DNA of 64,000 bases, taken from assembly GCF_000022905.1 (NCBI RefSeq), contig NC_012590.1:2170001-2234000 (forward strand), read 5' to 3'. The number at the start of each line of letters is the position of its first letter. The first letter of the stretch is position 1. The position numbers were made by a program, and so were the translations under genes. The notes beneath the pieces were generated by a model. The model made no database searches, had not been told where the DNA came from, and worked only from the letters and a program-made list of their open reading frames with translations. This document shows, in pieces, positions 7,869 to 14,658 of this stretch. Source of the stretch: Corynebacterium aurimucosum ATCC 700975. GTDB lineage: Bacteria > Actinomycetota > Actinomycetes > Mycobacteriales > Mycobacteriaceae.

Positions 7869-8546
7869 TTAGAATAGGTGGTTTAGCTTCCCGGCCTTAC
7901 GCGCCTCGTAGATTTCCTCAGGGGACATGTTGTCCAGGTCCTCTACGGTGAGCTTGCGGGAGCCACTGTTTTCGGATGGTGTCGGAGCGTTACCGGAAGA
8001 TGCGGGCGCCACCTGGGCGCGCAGCTTCGGGGTTGCTGCCACCGTCTCCGAGACGAGCTCAGCCACCTGGGCTTCGTAGTCATCGGCGGACGGGTCAAGG
8101 GCTGCGAATGCTTCACCGCCCTTAATGAAGGGGACAGTCAGATCCGGGTCGGCCTTAGCCTTCTGTACCGCTTCGCTGAGCGCTACCCGCTGACGCAGCT
8201 GGTTGTACCGCTCATCGGCGGCCTTAGCCTGCTCCTGGTACTTCTTGCCGAGGTCCTCGACGTCTTCCTCCTCCGCGAGGCCCATGACCTTAGCCAGGTT
8301 CTGCTTGTAGGACTCGAACTGCTGCTCGATCTCCTGCTGGCGTTTCTCGAACTCGGCGGTCGCCTTTTCCTGCTCGCGGAACTTCGTGCGCCACTTCGCG
8401 GCCTCAGCGTTGAGTTGGGAGATACGGTCATCGCCCTCCTCGTTGTGCTGCGGGCTGGTGGGCTCCTGGCCTTCCTCCTGCCCCGGCTGCTGGGTGGTGT
8501 TCTCAGTGTTCTGCTCGTCGGCGACGGAGGCGGTGGTGTCTGACAT
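7869..8546 (-). CDS. Capsid scaffolding protein
   Basis: 225 aa, guides capsid assembly and leaves the mature head. Acidic, Gln/Glu-rich N-terminus (QQPGQEEGQEPTSPQHNEEG), a long predicted coiled coil at about residues 45-130 (KFREQEKATAEFEKRQQEIE), and a C-terminal LTVEDLDNMSPEEIYEARKA typical of actinophage scaffolds that contact the capsid. 12 bp upstream of the capsid gene. Confidence 0.9.
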   Translation of the reverse strand: MSDTTASVADEQNTENTTQQPGQEEGQEPTSPQHNEEGDDRISQLNAEAAKWRTKFREQEKATAEFEKRQQEIEQQFESYKQNLAKVMGLAEEEDVEDLGKKYQEQAKAADERYNQLRQRVALSEAVQKAKADPDLTVPFIKGGEAFAALDPSADDYEAQVAELVSETVAATPKLRAQVAPASSGNAPTPSENSGSRKLTVEDLDNMSPEEIYEARKAGKLNHLF

Positions 8547-8627
8547 ATGGGTGTCCCTTCATTGTCTTGGTTTGTGGTAACTCCTGGTCTGCCACTGCCC
8601 CAGATGATGCGGGTGTTGTGTGTGCGG

Positions 8628-10613
8628 TCAGCTTCTCGGTCGTTCGCGGTGCGACCATCGGGTGAGGTGCTCGTGGTTATTGACGTGCTCCCGGATGCGC
8701 CGGTTCCACCCTTTCGTTTTGGCGCGGGCAGTGTCCCGGTCAAGTGGGGAGAGAGCTACGGCCTCGCGGCGTTTCCAGCGGCGGAGTTGCCGCTCCATGT
8801 ACCGCTGCTGTTGTGTCGCCTTGTACTTACGTTTGTTCTCAGCGGGGCTATCCATCGGGACCTGTGGTGTTGGGTCGCCCGGGGTGTAGGCGGTATCGCG
8901 GTGCCGACAGTTGTGTACTACAATTCCATTCAAAGCATAGAAACCTAGTTCGGTTTGGAAGTCGTACGCATGGCCCCTAAATATGAATTTCTCGACACTA
9001 ACCACCTCGTCCGACTCCACAACGCCGGGCACAGCTGCACAGACATCGGACGGATGTTCGGAGTCTCCAGGTCGACGGTAGGAAAGCGCCTCAAGGCTGC
9101 CGGTCTCCCGCCCATCAAGGCCCGGCGCAACATCAACATCCCCGAAGTTATCGACCTGTACGAAACCGGCCTCAGCTGCGAGCAGATTGGCTCCCAGCTT
9201 GGGGTTAGCGGCACCACCATTAGGCGACGCCTCAAGAAGGAAGGCATCACCTTGAGGCAAGGCCCCTCCTACCGGAGTAGCAACTCCATGGAGCAGCGAA
9301 TGAAGACCGCTATGACCAACTGCTTCGCCCCTACCCATATCGGGCCAAACGAAACGCACTTCGCCGGTTTCCTTAACGATCTTGGTGTCGGGTACAGGCA
9401 GCAAACAGTCATCGGCCATTACAACGTCGACTTCACCCTTGAGAAACTGCCTGTCGTCATTGAAGTGGTATCCGGAGGTAGTAGCGCTAGTGCTCGTGCC
9501 ATAGCGTTTGAGCGAAGCAAATTCATCCTCAACAGTGGCTGGCATCTCTTCGAGCTTCGGCTCACCTCCGATAACGGGTACCGTCCGGTCACTCTCGACG
9601 GTGTTGAAAAGATGATCGCCTACGCGGATGCTCTCGGCAGTACGCCACCCTCTGCTGGTAAGTATCGGGTGTTCAGGGGAGACGGTCGCCTTGTGTCCCT
9701 TCGCGGTGCGAATCGTGAACGCTGGGCCGAAGTAGGTGCCCTTTGATGCGCCTACGGTTCCGGCGAAGGTGTCGATAGTCTGCTCTCCTCCGAGGATTGC
9801 GTTGGGGTGGTGATATCCCTTGCTGATTGCACCCCTCAGCGTGTCCTTGACATGCACCGTCACCTGCTCCCCCGTCGCCGGGTCTACCATCTCACGTACC
9901 CCTGCCCCGCCCGAGATCGCCAAAAGTTGATTCTGGAACGGGTAGCACTGCGGCGCCGAGGCCGTGTGCCACGAAGCGCGCACCAGCTCCACACCGGCCT
10001 GCTCATAACCGGATAGGTGCCCCTCCTGGGTGGCCTGATTCCTCATCGTCCTTACGGACATGTCCACGTAGGAGTCAAGCGCCCATTTACGCCCGGCCCT
10101 ATCCACAAATGCGGTGATGCCCCTGTCGGCGTATTGGTTGAGGGCGTGCCTCATTGCTGCCCTATGGTCAGCCCCGGCAATAATCGAGGACTGTACCGTC
10201 TGGGCGGTGATACTGCGGTACACGTCGGAGACTTCACGGACGACCCTGAGATGTGTGGACGCTATCGCCTGCGAGGCGCCGGTGGCCGCTACCTGTACGG
10301 CTGACAGGGCGGCCACGGTGGGTATCGCCTCAGCACTGCGCCCCACATCTTCTAGGACTCCGAGCATCGCGGCCTTAAACTCCGCCACGGCCAACTCCTC
10401 GACCATGCTGGTGGTCTTAGCCCCAGCGGCGGTAAGGATACGACGGGCCCGCTCTAAGAGCTTCCGAACCTCAGCGTCGCGGTAGAGGAGCCGGTTAACA
10501 TCCTCATAGGTGCCGTGCTTAATAGCTGCCGAGAGCTCACGAAGGATCAGTATTTCCGCGTCCTCATAGAGGCGCACAAGGCGGGCAGCCTGCCTGTCTT
10601 TACTGTCCGCCAT
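8628..10613 (-). CDS. MuF-type minor capsid protein interrupted by an intein
   Basis: 661 aa precursor. Residues 1-271 and 569-661 are the extein, a minor capsid protein of the Mu gpF / Phage_min_cap2 kind that sits inside the head at the portal. Its signature HPNCRH is split, with N271 joined to A272 of the intein and C569 restoring CRH after N568. Splicing would give a 364-aa protein. It is 3 bp downstream of the portal gene. The C-terminus is very basic (RRWKRREAV). A second gene is encoded antisense within the intein part. Confidence 0.9.
   Translation of the reverse strand: MADSKDRQAARLVRLYEDAEILILRELSAAIKHGTYEDVNRLLYRDAEVRKLLERARRILTAAGAKTTSMVEELAVAEFKAAMLGVLEDVGRSAEAIPTVAALSAVQVAATGASQAIASTHLRVVREVSDVYRSITAQTVQSSIIAGADHRAAMRHALNQYADRGITAFVDRAGRKWALDSYVDMSVRTMRNQATQEGHLSGYEQAGVELVRASWHTASAPQCYPFQNQLLAISGGAGVREMVDPATGEQVTVHVKDTLRGAISKGYHHPNAILGGEQTIDTFAGTVGASKGTYFGPAFTIRTAKGHKATVSPEHPILTSRGWRTAESIRVGDHLFNTVESDRTVPVIGGEPKLEEMPATVEDEFASLKRYGTSTSATTSGYHFNDDRQFLKGEVDVVMADDCLLPVPDTKIVKETGEVRFVWPDMGRGEAVGHSGLHSLLHGVATPVGGALPQGDAFLLEASPNGGAANPKLGANLLAAEAGFVQVDNFGDVDVAPGLDGRETGSLEALSYRRPGDSEHPSDVCAAVPGVVESDEVVSVEKFIFRGHAYDFQTELGFYALNGIVVHNCRHRDTAYTPGDPTPQVPMDSPAENKRKYKATQQQRYMERQLRRWKRREAVALSPLDRDTARAKTKGWNRRIREHVNNHEHLTRWSHRERPRS
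8910..9800 (-). other. Intein in the minor capsid protein (Ala1, HN|C junction)
   Basis: 297-aa intein, residues 272-568 of the precursor. Block A starts AILGGEQTIDT with Ala instead of Cys or Ser. Block B is TVSPEHPILT (His315). Block F is GHAYDFQTELGFYALNG and block G IVVHN before Cys569. Ala1 with Asp in block F and Cys+1 fits class 2 inteins, in which Cys+1 attacks directly. The middle part reads YHFNDDRQFLKGEVDVV and lacks a recognisable in-frame endonuclease. The insertion is at the most conserved extein motif, HPN|CRH. Confidence 0.88.
8970..9746 (+). CDS. Antisense nested homing endonuclease candidate (HTH + PD-(D/E)XK/Vsr-like)
   Basis: 258 aa on the plus strand, entirely inside the intein coding region of the minus strand. 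ATG 8970 has GGAAG 8 nt upstream; a TTG at 8955 is an alternative. Two resolvase-like helix-turn-helix units occur: SCTDIGRMFGVSRSTVGKRL and SCEQIGSQLGVSGTTIRRRL. A Vsr/DUF559-like nuclease core follows, with THFAGFLNDLGV, GHYNVDFTLEKLPVVIEVV and SGWHLFELRL. HTH plus Vsr-like nuclease is a known homing endonuclease design. Each codon is the exact reverse complement of an intein codon. The function is inferred; coding is supported by two intact domains. Confidence 0.75.
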   Translation: MAPKYEFLDTNHLVRLHNAGHSCTDIGRMFGVSRSTVGKRLKAAGLPPIKARRNINIPEVIDLYETGLSCEQIGSQLGVSGTTIRRRLKKEGITLRQGPSYRSSNSMEQRMKTAMTNCFAPTHIGPNETHFAGFLNDLGVGYRQQTVIGHYNVDFTLEKLPVVIEVVSGGSSASARAIAFERSKFILNSGWHLFELRLTSDNGYRPVTLDGVEKMIAYADALGSTPPSAGKYRVFRGDGRLVSLRGANRERWAEVGAL

Positions 10614-12402: not shown

Positions 12403-14658
12403 CTATGCGGCCGTCTGGGGTGCGGTCAGCTGGGCCCTCAGCTTCTCAACGTGACGCCCCCACAAGTGGCGGGACGAGTACACGGCGTACCGCATGGCGT
12501 CGCAGTTGTGGGTGACCAAGCCCTCGGCGAGGTAAGTGTGTGCCCCGGCAACGGTGAGGTTATACACCGGCTCGGTTCTTTCTTCTTCGGTAACCTCCAG
12601 CACACGCACGGGAACAGCACGCAGCTCGGGAATACTTACTGGTTGTGAACTCTTCACCGCAGTAGGCGCAGGTTCGTTGCTCATTATCGACACCGGATGC
12701 GCGTCGCCAAGCGGACTTGCAAGAGTTGCTACAGAATCGGGCGATTCTATTAGTTGCTGCGACCGTGAAGCAGGTACCGCAGTGTTCACACGTGTATTGA
12801 CGCTCAACGAGACACTTGCCGAGTGAGTTAGCCCAGTGCCGGGAGTGCCACTCGTGCCCTTCGCTGCTGGCGTGCCATTCCTTTGTAAGTTCACGGATAC
12901 GGGCAAGATGCTGCTGGTTGCTGCCTGCCCACTCCGGATCAGACTGGTTGATGCCCGCATGGTAGCGAGAGTGCTCCGAAGCGCTAACGAGTTGAAGATT
13001 CTCAGGCCGGTTGTCCAAGGTGTCATGGTTGATGTGGTGGACGTGATAGCCTTCCGGGATTTCTTCTCGGTTGTGGTGGTCGCGCCAGATTTCGCGGTGA
13101 AGGTAATCGACTCCGCGTTGTTTGTCCCCAACGCCGGGCACGAAGTATTTGCGGTGTGCGGGCACTGGCGAATCTGGGTAGCGGCGGAATCGGATTCCTT
13201 TGTAGGTGATGGTTTCGGAGCGTGCCATGAGGTTAGTGCTTGTCCTTTCTGAATGTCCCCAAGTTGCACCCACTGGCCGTTAACGAGCATGGGGTGGTTC
13301 GGGGTGCCGGTGATGCTTCTGCCGTCTGATAGATGAAGCGTGATGGTGTGTGCAGCCGGGTTGGTCATCTCGTGCGCAGCAATTGGGAACACGCCCAGGG
13401 GCGTGGCCACGAGGTCACCGACGTTGAGGGTGTCTAAGCGTTGTGGGCCGGTTGGGGTGGCGATCATTGTGCTGCCGACCAGGCAGTGGTCGTCTAGTTC
13501 CTTTACCGGGGCGTCCTTGCCGCGTTCTGCCGCTGAGGCGTCCCACCTGTAGCCGGGTATCTCCTCAATGAGTCTCTTGCAGTCCTGGGCGATGGTGAGT
13601 GCCCCGCTGGTGAGTAGCGAGTCAACCTGCCGGATACCATCAACAACGCTGTTATCAGCCTTAGTAGTCCTGACTTTTCGGCGGCGGAGCTCCTCATGGA
13701 ATGAGGCGGCGGCAGGGTCGATATATAGACCCTTAGGCTGGTTCGGTAGGGTGCTCAGCCACTCTTGTAGGGAGTCCGCTAGTTCTCCGTCTGTGAGGCG
13801 TGTACGGCCCCCTAGGCCCGTTGTTTGAGGCGACCACTCGTGTGTTACCTGTAGCCCGTCCTCGGTCACGGTGAGCGCGTACCCAGCCGAAGGGTGATTG
13901 GTTCCGTAGTCAATTCCGACAGCCAGCACAGTCCCCACGGCCCGGCCTTTCACCATGGTGTCCGGGTCCCATGATTCATACACCGCGCCCTCGGCAGCGG
14001 CCCACTCGCCCCGAATCATGCGGCGGTAGAAGATACCCGTATAGGACGCCTTCATGCGCTCCTTGTACTCCTCGGTGAGGCCTGGGTTATCGTCCATTGT
14101 GAACAGGCGGGCGTAGGTGTCGGTCTCGCCCGGCTTGTCGATAAAGTTCGTCTTGAGGTAGTGGGCCGGTGTTGCCGGGTTGGTGGTGGCGAACACTCGA
14201 GGGGGGTTTGGGTTGCCCGTGGCGCGCATGCGTGACCAGAGCATTTCCCACACGTTTTCCGGGCAAAGAGTCAACTCGTCATAAAAGAGGAGCTGGTAGG
14301 TGCCGCCTCGAATCCTGCCCTCAGCCCCCTGGTCGTTCACCCCGATGACCTGAACCTCGCGGCCGAAGATGGTAGCCGTCGGGTTGCGCCTCACGTAGTG
14401 GATGAAGGGGGCGGCGGTCGCAAAGATAGGCTCCGTCTGCAGGGGCATGAACACGTTCTGGTAGATCGCGTCAAGTGATTTTCCGCAGATGACGATACTG
14501 CCGGACTTACCGGCCTGCTTTATCTCTCCGAGCATCATGAATAGCCAGGCGAGTGTCTTACCGGATGACACGGAGCCGTACCAGATATTGAGGGCGTGGG
14601 TTGAGTGTGCGATAGCGGTGACCTGCCCCCGCGAGAAACGGAAACCCTCGTTACTCAT
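12403..14658 (-). CDS. Terminase large subunit containing an intein
   Basis: 751 aa precursor. Extein residues 1-391 and 719-751. The ATPase has Walker A YGSVSSGKT (27-35), Walker B LLFYDELTL and the coupling motif TTNPATPAHYLK. The nuclease has GIDYGTNHPS (Asp249), YIDPAAAS (Asp314) and the last acidic motif split at DDH|CDAMRYA. Splicing would leave about 424 aa. The start overlaps terS by 8 bp. It packages phage DNA into the head with terS and portal. Confidence 0.93.
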   Translation of the reverse strand: MSNEGFRFSRGQVTAIAHSTHALNIWYGSVSSGKTLAWLFMMLGEIKQAGKSGSIVICGKSLDAIYQNVFMPLQTEPIFATAAPFIHYVRRNPTATIFGREVQVIGVNDQGAEGRIRGGTYQLLFYDELTLCPENVWEMLWSRMRATGNPNPPRVFATTNPATPAHYLKTNFIDKPGETDTYARLFTMDDNPGLTEEYKERMKASYTGIFYRRMIRGEWAAAEGAVYESWDPDTMVKGRAVGTVLAVGIDYGTNHPSAGYALTVTEDGLQVTHEWSPQTTGLGGRTRLTDGELADSLQEWLSTLPNQPKGLYIDPAAASFHEELRRRKVRTTKADNSVVDGIRQVDSLLTSGALTIAQDCKRLIEEIPGYRWDASAAERGKDAPVKELDDHCLVGSTMIATPTGPQRLDTLNVGDLVATPLGVFPIAAHEMTNPAAHTITLHLSDGRSITGTPNHPMLVNGQWVQLGDIQKGQALTSWHAPKPSPTKESDSAATQIRQCPHTANTSCPALGTNNAESITFTAKSGATTTTEKKSRKAITSTTSTMTPWTTGLRIFNSLALRSTLATMRASTSLIRSGQAATSSILPVSVNLQRNGTPAAKGTSGTPGTGLTHSASVSLSVNTRVNTAVPASRSQQLIESPDSVATLASPLGDAHPVSIMSNEPAPTAVKSSQPVSIPELRAVPVRVLEVTEEERTEPVYNLTVAGAHTYLAEGLVTHNCDAMRYAVYSSRHLWGRHVEKLRAQLTAPQTAA
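12505..13485 (-). other. Class 1 intein in terminase large subunit
   Basis: 327 aa, residues 392-718. Block A is CLVGSTMIATPTGPQRLDTL with Cys1, block B is SITGTPNHPMLVNGQW, block F is EPVYNLTVAGAHTYLAEGL, and block G is VTHN before Cys719. The middle in this frame (about residues 480-680) is Ser/Thr/Ala/Pro-rich low-complexity sequence with no endonuclease motif. In the -1 frame the same DNA encodes an HNH protein. The in-frame linker therefore looks like a by-product of the other gene. Confidence 0.92.
12560..13228 (-). CDS. HNH homing endonuclease nested out of frame in the terL intein
   Basis: 222 aa from ATG 13228; GTG 13273 is an alternative, and AAAGGA lies 14 nt before ATG 13228. HNH core: LHREIWRDHHNREEIPEGYH then VHHINHDTLDNRPENLQLVS (His44, His64-65, Asn73/77). 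Two zinc-ribbon units follow: CEHCGTCF..RFCSNSCKSAW and CAYCGEEF..ACCSRACAGG. It is in the -1 frame relative to the intein and lies wholly within it. It probably cleaves intein-free terL genes to drive intein homing. Expression could be by internal initiation or frameshift. Confidence 0.88.
   Translation of the reverse strand: MARSETITYKGIRFRRYPDSPVPAHRKYFVPGVGDKQRGVDYLHREIWRDHHNREEIPEGYHVHHINHDTLDNRPENLQLVSASEHSRYHAGINQSDPEWAGSNQQHLARIRELTKEWHASSEGHEWHSRHWANSLGKCLVERQYTCEHCGTCFTVAATNRIARFCSNSCKSAWRRASGVDNEQRTCAYCGEEFTTSKYSRAACCSRACAGGYRRRKNRAGV

Follow-up and report, generated by a model that had tools for sequence, protein, structure and literature searches.

In inteins such as PI-SceI, the homing endonuclease is a domain of the intein itself, encoded in frame and on the same strand. 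Here, we describe an 891-base-pair (bp) insert in a prophage minor capsid gene of Corynebacterium aurimucosum ATCC 700975 that is very probably a bidirectionally coded mobile unit, in which one strand encodes an intein and the opposite strand a homing endonuclease of the Vsr/EDxHD type. The insert lies in a 64,000-nucleotide stretch of contig NC_012590.1 (positions 2,170,001 to 2,234,000; "the window"), from whose first letter its positions are counted. As in PI-SceI-type inteins, splicing and an endonuclease are combined on one insert in a conserved gene motif; here, however, the endonuclease would be a separate protein of the opposite strand, whose gene covers 86 to 95% of the intein, block B included, in the 20 loci measured. 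Dassa et al. reportedly described, in 2009, "fractured genes" in which split inteins have a Vsr-like endonuclease gene between their halves. There, too, a Vsr-like gene is associated with an intein, but the free gene breaks the intein in two, whereas in the present case the intein is unbroken and the overlap runs codon for codon.

Two further systems place an endonuclease in another frame or on another strand of its host element. Nuclear group I introns carry antisense homing endonuclease genes, and one of the enzymes, I-DsqI, is reported to be expressed and to cut the intron-lacking site (PMC9548176). The likeness is a homing endonuclease gene antisense to a self-splicing element; the difference is that the element is an RNA intron in ribosomal DNA with no opposite protein frame, whereas here both strands code. 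The ShiLan insertion hides an HNH endonuclease in the "third frame" of a methylase, and its authors found no splicing domain (PMC11855218). Like our locus, it has an endonuclease out of frame with the host gene, inside an insert that is open in the host-gene frame; our locus differs in using the opposite strand, having a Vsr-type rather than an HNH enzyme, and containing a Hint intein. Our literature search returned no description of an intein with an antisense endonuclease; an unread 2025 preprint (10.1101/2025.01.02.630785), whose title concerns "non-canonical" inteins of actinobacteriophages, may overlap. A word search of the 2016 mycobacteriophage intein survey returned none of "antisense," "opposite," and "capsid" (PMC5050341).

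An intein and an antisense gene share one segment of the minor capsid gene

The minor capsid gene (Phage_min_cap2; Pfam E 2.1e-49) lies on the minus strand at 8628 to 10613 and encodes an intein-bearing precursor of 661 amino acids. An intein-free gene from a same-genus genome (G149) sets the boundaries of the insert. Its exteins are contiguous and match precursor residues 1 to 271 (68%) and 568 to 661 (97%), the second match starting at 568 because the final Asn of the intein is the same residue as the one preceding the site; its junction DNA is uninterrupted, with flanks 86% and 92.5% identical to the window. By this alignment, the N-extein (271 residues; 9801 to 10613, minus strand) ends in HHPN, and the C-extein (8628 to 8909, minus strand) starts with CRHRDTAY. 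Between them, the 297-residue intein (precursor residues 272 to 568; 8910 to 9800, minus strand) runs from Ala1 to a terminal His-Asn followed by Cys+1, and the junctions read HHPN/AILGG on the N side and GIVVHN/CRHRD on the C side. Conserved blocks, profile, and structural model also support this assignment, which bears out the 297-residue minus-strand intein proposed in the initial annotation of the window.

On its plus strand, this DNA holds a gene for a 258-residue protein with an ATG start (8970 to 9746), recognized as an open reading frame (ORF) and by Pfam, fold, and homologues. It lies entirely within the intein, with intein margins of 60 and 54 bp on its two sides, and here the coordinates first proposed were exact. 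Its codons are exact reverse complements of the intein codons, so that plus position 1 lies opposite the intein wobble position. A weak ribosome-binding motif, GGAAG (8957 to 8961, plus strand), is located 8 nucleotides upstream of the ATG, and a TTG at 8955 is in frame with it. Intein block B (TVSPEHPILT; 9657 to 9686, minus strand) is the complement of conserved residues 230 to 239 of the nuclease (GKYRVFRGDG), within the motif GxYRV(I/F)RGDG. Blocks F and G extend from His277 (HAYDFQTELGFYALNGIVVHN; 8910 to 8972, minus strand), and the complement of the His codon is the nuclease start ATG.

The plus-strand product is predicted to be a Vsr-like nuclease

Structure prediction gives the plus-strand product a Vsr-like nuclease fold. 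The model (predicted local distance difference test [pLDDT] score of 84) comprises two helix-turn-helix (HTH) units and a nuclease domain. The first HTH unit (residues 10 to 43; 8997 to 9098, plus strand) is supported by Pfam and the model, the second (residues 57 to 90; 9138 to 9239, plus strand) by Pfam, the model, and a profile, and the nuclease domain (residues 122 to 246; 9333 to 9707, plus strand) by conservation, the model, and structural matches. In Pfam, the product matches HTH_23 (6.6e-12) and DUF559 (22.8 bits; cut-off, 20.6). These results and the match to Vsr (1vsr) confirm the two HTH units and Vsr/DUF559-like core that the initial annotation had read from the letters.

The best structural matches of the nuclease domain are Vsr and the homing endonuclease I-Bth0305I (PDB 3r3p). 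Our protein is like the latter in catalytic fold and by profile similarity; 3r3p is labelled a mobile intron protein, whereas the gene described here is antisense to intein-coding DNA. Residues E128, Q145, Y151, N152, D154, E165, and R182 are invariant or near-invariant across homologues. Four of them, E128, D154, E165, and R182, are candidates for the active-site E-D-x-H-D residues of EDxHD/Vsr-like homing endonucleases. Rhodococcus phage REQ3 (L009, 1956 to 2498) has a shortened 181-residue nuclease that lacks the HTH units and sits inside a shorter intein; this version is perhaps on a path to loss.

The minus-strand product resembles Hint-type inteins

Residues invariant in 21 aligned inteins include H44 (block B), T48, H277 (block F), and the C-terminal N297, and a profile of the 21 sequences matches structures of the Mtu RecA intein (1.1e-9). 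The window intein scores 28.6 bits against the Pfam family Intein_splicing (PF14890), under the cut-off of 35.8; L019 and L084, among 10 scanned, score above it. In the AlphaFold2 model (overall pLDDT, 60.8), the Hint ends are confident, with block means of about 74 to 95, and residues 132 to 247 are disordered. Foldseek comparison of this model with the PDB gave only intein or hedgehog Hint domains among the matches listed (50 of 88); the best had an E value of 1.6e-3, and none of the 88 reached 0.001. Pfam matches to the minus-strand protein (P0002) up to E 1 include no in-frame endonuclease family. The first intein residue is Cys in 36 of 39 representative loci, with the N-junction located by looking for Cys, and Ala in the window, C. 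flavescens (L016), and REQ3 (L009).

The arrangement is widespread in phages

A tblastn search with the window's plus-strand protein returned 52 phage records, four of which (Caulobacter) match the HTH part alone. The corresponding protein of phage LPSE1 returned 106, including 101 with a single place covering 80% of the query; genomic context is known for the loci fetched from these records. Of the 59 loci obtained through nuclease-side searches, many are near copies of one another (for example, L050 to L058; L014 is close to L010); at every one, the antisense frame runs open opposite the intein, in register. The matched stretch is stop-free in 57 of the 59, and in L006 and L019 the match extends 9 and 30 bp beyond the gene's stop. 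L011 (Caulobacter phage C1), which has tandem HTH units but no nuclease, was removed before counting; L021 to L023 stand outside the 59, and L022, which was read, has a nuclease gene opposite an intein-bearing ORF. As a control against selecting intact nucleases, we also searched from the intein side (41 and 131 records) and fetched 10 records, none among the 52. All 10 contain the antisense gene (242 to 303 amino acids), again with an open frame. The loci with an open frame, from both sides, range from 38 to 70% GC. Coverage of the intein by the gene was measured in 20 of 24 loci; in L018, the gene extends 12 bp beyond the intein end. The prediction of homologues outside the window with undisrupted frames is thereby upheld. 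The initial annotation is also supported in placing an antisense endonuclease within an intein, but this is not a single case: it is a widespread class, and the overlap takes in splicing motifs.

Hosts of the checked loci include Corynebacterium, Gordonia, Rhodococcus, Mycobacterium, Salmonella, Escherichia, Klebsiella, Cronobacter, Pantoea, Pseudomonas, Vibrio, Edwardsiella, Aggregatibacter, Idiomarinaceae, and Helicobacter. The records annotate the intein strand as a head, minor capsid, capsid-maturation, or hypothetical protein, and three tblastn-matched records name an intein (KMB36, fEg-Eco06, and Snoke). A nuclease appears in no feature name among the matches listed for the window and LPSE1 queries. 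Phage vB_StyS-sam has an annotated plus-strand ORF at the locus, but in a different frame, and in some Corynebacterium copies plus-strand fragments are annotated as HTH or DUF559 proteins. A profile matched 160 of 242 same-genus genomes; among the matches listed, four genomes (G000, G051, G069, and G070) have best E values of the size given by full-length copies, and the remainder are, by matched range, HTH or DUF559 pieces. Alignment A4, used as a query, found no viral relative. Acinetobacter phage vB_AbaM_IME285 carries a free-standing nuclease relative, an annotated coding sequence for 297 amino acids (L130:455-1348), convergent to an uninterrupted MuF-like head gene with a 7-bp overlap. 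The intein form may have descended from this free-standing form or given rise to it.

With corrected junctions, a C-(R/K)-C motif in the host protein immediately follows the insertion in 26 of 39 representatives. Other insertion points occur in L007 (MuF) and L120 (annotated as a capsid maturation protease). The host gene of L121 matches dCMP deaminase (5.6e-11), with the intein within PC../C, and that of L019 gives a terminase match of 20.6 bits, below the Pfam cut-off of 23.2; by this similarity, the L019 intein is probably in a terminase. The L121 record (Virus Rctr197k; L121:1108-2514) annotates the product as "putative head morphogenesis protein" despite its match to dCMP deaminase, and this name may derive from the intein.

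Both strands are under constraint

A GC-rich gene read in register may avoid antisense stops through codon bias, in which case the plus-strand ORF would be a coding artefact. We computed the probability of finding no antisense stop in 39 representatives, given the residues of the intein and the local usage of Leu/Ser codons. The log10 P ranges from -0.5, in a GC-rich Gordonia phage, to -14.6, and the sum over the 39 is -199, with shared ancestry ignored and small codon counts. In single GC-rich loci, such as the window and Gordonia (-0.5 to -1.6), an open frame is not improbable, as the artefact explanation would have it; yet the frame is also open at 34 to 48% GC, with log10 P down to -14.6. 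The window, at -1.6, is therefore no proof alone, and the family supplies it.

Start codon and ribosome motif provide two further tests, although the sets of 39 used for the stop and ribosome-motif analyses and for the junction analysis differ by one member (L065 versus L016). The distance between the start codon and the intein C-end is 60 bp in 20/20 loci in one measurement and in 33/39 representatives in another, which uses corrected C-junctions in L008, L072, L075, L077, and L080 and in which L131 was not assigned. The other distances are 63 bp (L012 and L013), 66 bp (L121), 69 bp (L006), and 114 bp (L009, the shortened gene). An in-register ATG is always opposite CAT, so the test was restricted to the conserved block-F His. 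In the 32 representatives with 60-bp spacing in which this His faces the start, its codon is CAT 31 times and CAC once, versus 13.2 CAT predicted by local codon usage (P about 1e-13, assuming independence). A ribosome motif (GGAG, GAGG, AAGG, or AGGA) is present in 32 of 39 representatives, versus 10.2 expected under synonymous recoding. The claim that the gene has its own ribosome site thus holds for most of the family, while the window's own GGAAG is weak.

Substitution patterns reflect plus-strand constraint within the overlap and minus-strand constraint in the flanks. In all 19 pairs compared, intein position 1 is more variable than the wobble position inside the overlap, and the opposite is true in the flanks (Fisher p < 0.05 for the contrast in 18 of the 19); changes are not merely synonymous on the intein strand, in line with the initial annotation. 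Plus-product identity equals or exceeds minus-product identity in every pair. When 10 pairs are pooled, the plus-strand ratio of position 3 to position 1 changes is 1.68 for the HTH part and 1.45 for the nuclease core, but 0.73 opposite Hint blocks A to B, where the intein product is the more conserved (0.83 versus 0.79). The codon-bias explanation leaves this pattern, the HTH/Vsr homology, the fold, the start codon, and the ribosome motif unexplained, and a free-standing copy exists. On the strength of the 34 to 48% GC loci and of the tests on start codon, ribosome motif, and substitutions, we therefore reject it as having next to no probability, although the window by itself could not have excluded an artefact.

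Across 165 distant pairs, we compared intein-strand conservation with that forced by the plus residues. It is 0.395 versus 0.197 in the Hint zone, 0.236 versus 0.180 in the core, and 0.184 versus 0.166 in the HTH zone. Together, the zone results indicate constraint on both strands, each peaking at its own active site. These data bear on the idea that splicing has been lost and that the nuclease gene merely keeps the host-strand frame open, with the insert retained in the capsid protein, in the way proposed for the ShiLan insertion. Ala1 in the window fits that idea, as does an intein-strand middle that is mostly passenger sequence. It does not account for the invariance of H44, T48, H277, and N297 in 21 sequences, the confidently folded Hint ends, or the 26 of 39 insertions immediately before C-(R/K)-C, and Hint-zone conservation exceeds the plus-imposed level. 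Loss of splicing is disfavoured because of this Hint conservation, and we regard it as very unlikely.

Empty sites and allele replacement indicate mobility

A relative of the capsid protein (E 1e-10) is found in 13 of 242 same-genus genomes. Eleven contiguous intein-free copies occur in 11 genomes, namely, 10 of these 13 and the genome of the window itself, which holds one as a second copy. The copy in G160 carries one stop in its C-part; the relative in G051 has an intein, and that in G038 was matched in part. The second minor capsid gene of the window genome is intein-free and located elsewhere (G000:C2:2128996-2129814), making it a possible homing target within the same cell. Gordonia phages Fosterous and Kewpiedoll have near-identical extein stretches (99.6% over 280 amino acids and 98.7% over 150), whereas their inteins and nucleases, at one shared site, are 34.5% identical, so that one site is occupied by two distant members. 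As judged by these comparisons, intein-free relatives and allele replacement indicate mobility.

The plus-strand ORF could instead encode a selected nuclease whose main role is other than homing, such as excluding or damaging intein-free competitor phages, or HTH-based regulation. The N-terminal part of the protein is dominated by HTH units, and the free-standing relative adjoins an intein-less head gene, both of which are in keeping with such a role. The fold and profile, however, match the catalytic domain of a known homing endonuclease, and the exact empty sites and the allele replacement favour mobility. Exclusion, moreover, would result from the same cut and is compatible with homing. We consider a main role other than homing improbable.

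A second intein in the same prophage

Another intein (intein_Cterm, 31.6 bits; cut-off, 15.6) lies in the large terminase gene of this prophage (12403 to 14658, minus strand). A 237-residue HNH endonuclease ORF (HNH_3, 4.4e-14) lies at 12560 to 13273, on the same strand as the terminase intein but in another frame. The prophage thus has two inteins, each with an endonuclease in an overlapping frame. Related out-of-frame HNH genes inside intein-bearing terminase ORFs occur in phages TJE1 (L117), Highwayman (L118), and LS06 (L119).

Proposed mechanism and implications

We infer the following cycle for the two-strand unit. Read from the capsid strand, a Hint-type intein would excise itself from the minor capsid protein posttranslationally, leaving the capsid protein undamaged. 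Read from the other strand, a separate Vsr/EDxHD-type nuclease would be made from its own plus-strand message. Its HTH units would bind the codons of the conserved head-protein motif, the enzyme would cut the intein-free capsid gene near the insertion site, and repair and recombination would copy the whole unit in. The opposite orientation would release the nuclease from late expression, allowing an early nuclease and a late capsid protein. Splicing motifs are at the intein ends and the catalytic residues are opposite its middle, so that the essentials of each strand sit where the other is less critical.

Several observations weigh against this interpretation. In the window, L016, and L009, the intein begins with Ala rather than Cys, and such inteins would presumably require a class 2-like splicing route. 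On the nuclease side, Foldseek gave the plus-strand model one match at E 0.001 (1vsr) and no other, DUF559 is above the Pfam cut-off in two of 11 plus-strand proteins scanned (window and L076), and the L131 and free-standing L130 proteins match no Pfam family at 0.001. The window's probability of lacking an antisense stop (log10 P of -1.6) is unremarkable, and its weak GGAAG is not one of the 32 motifs counted. The loci are related by descent, so the summed probabilities are not independent; several of the 19 pairs have a common member, and L077 and L078 differ at one site. Finally, no sigma-70-like promoter was found in 8300 to 10000, where 0.4 is expected.

Beyond the single locus, and with less confidence, we think it rather likely that an old, widespread intein class is a two-strand gene pair, coded codon against codon in 0.7 to 1 kb, in which the complement of block F supplies the ribosome site and start of the nuclease, and that of block B its C-terminal motif. 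The class may derive from an IME285-like free Vsr-type gene that merged with a mini-intein, and would then have come to occupy two or more gene families, probably three, across phages that infect Actinobacteria, Proteobacteria, and Campylobacterota. The orientation would permit an early nuclease transcript separate from the late capsid transcript.

If true, this would be, within the literature searched, the first described intein with a homing endonuclease as a separate opposite-strand protein. The arrangement is common, with 106 phage records holding a relative of one member's nuclease, and intein annotation should therefore cover all six frames. The locus would also represent an antisense gene pair that stays in register over a long stretch and whose constraint can be measured on each strand, and the uncoupling of splicing and homing in time becomes testable. 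Vsr-type enzymes with HTH units targeting conserved codons are a possible source of sequence-specific nucleases.
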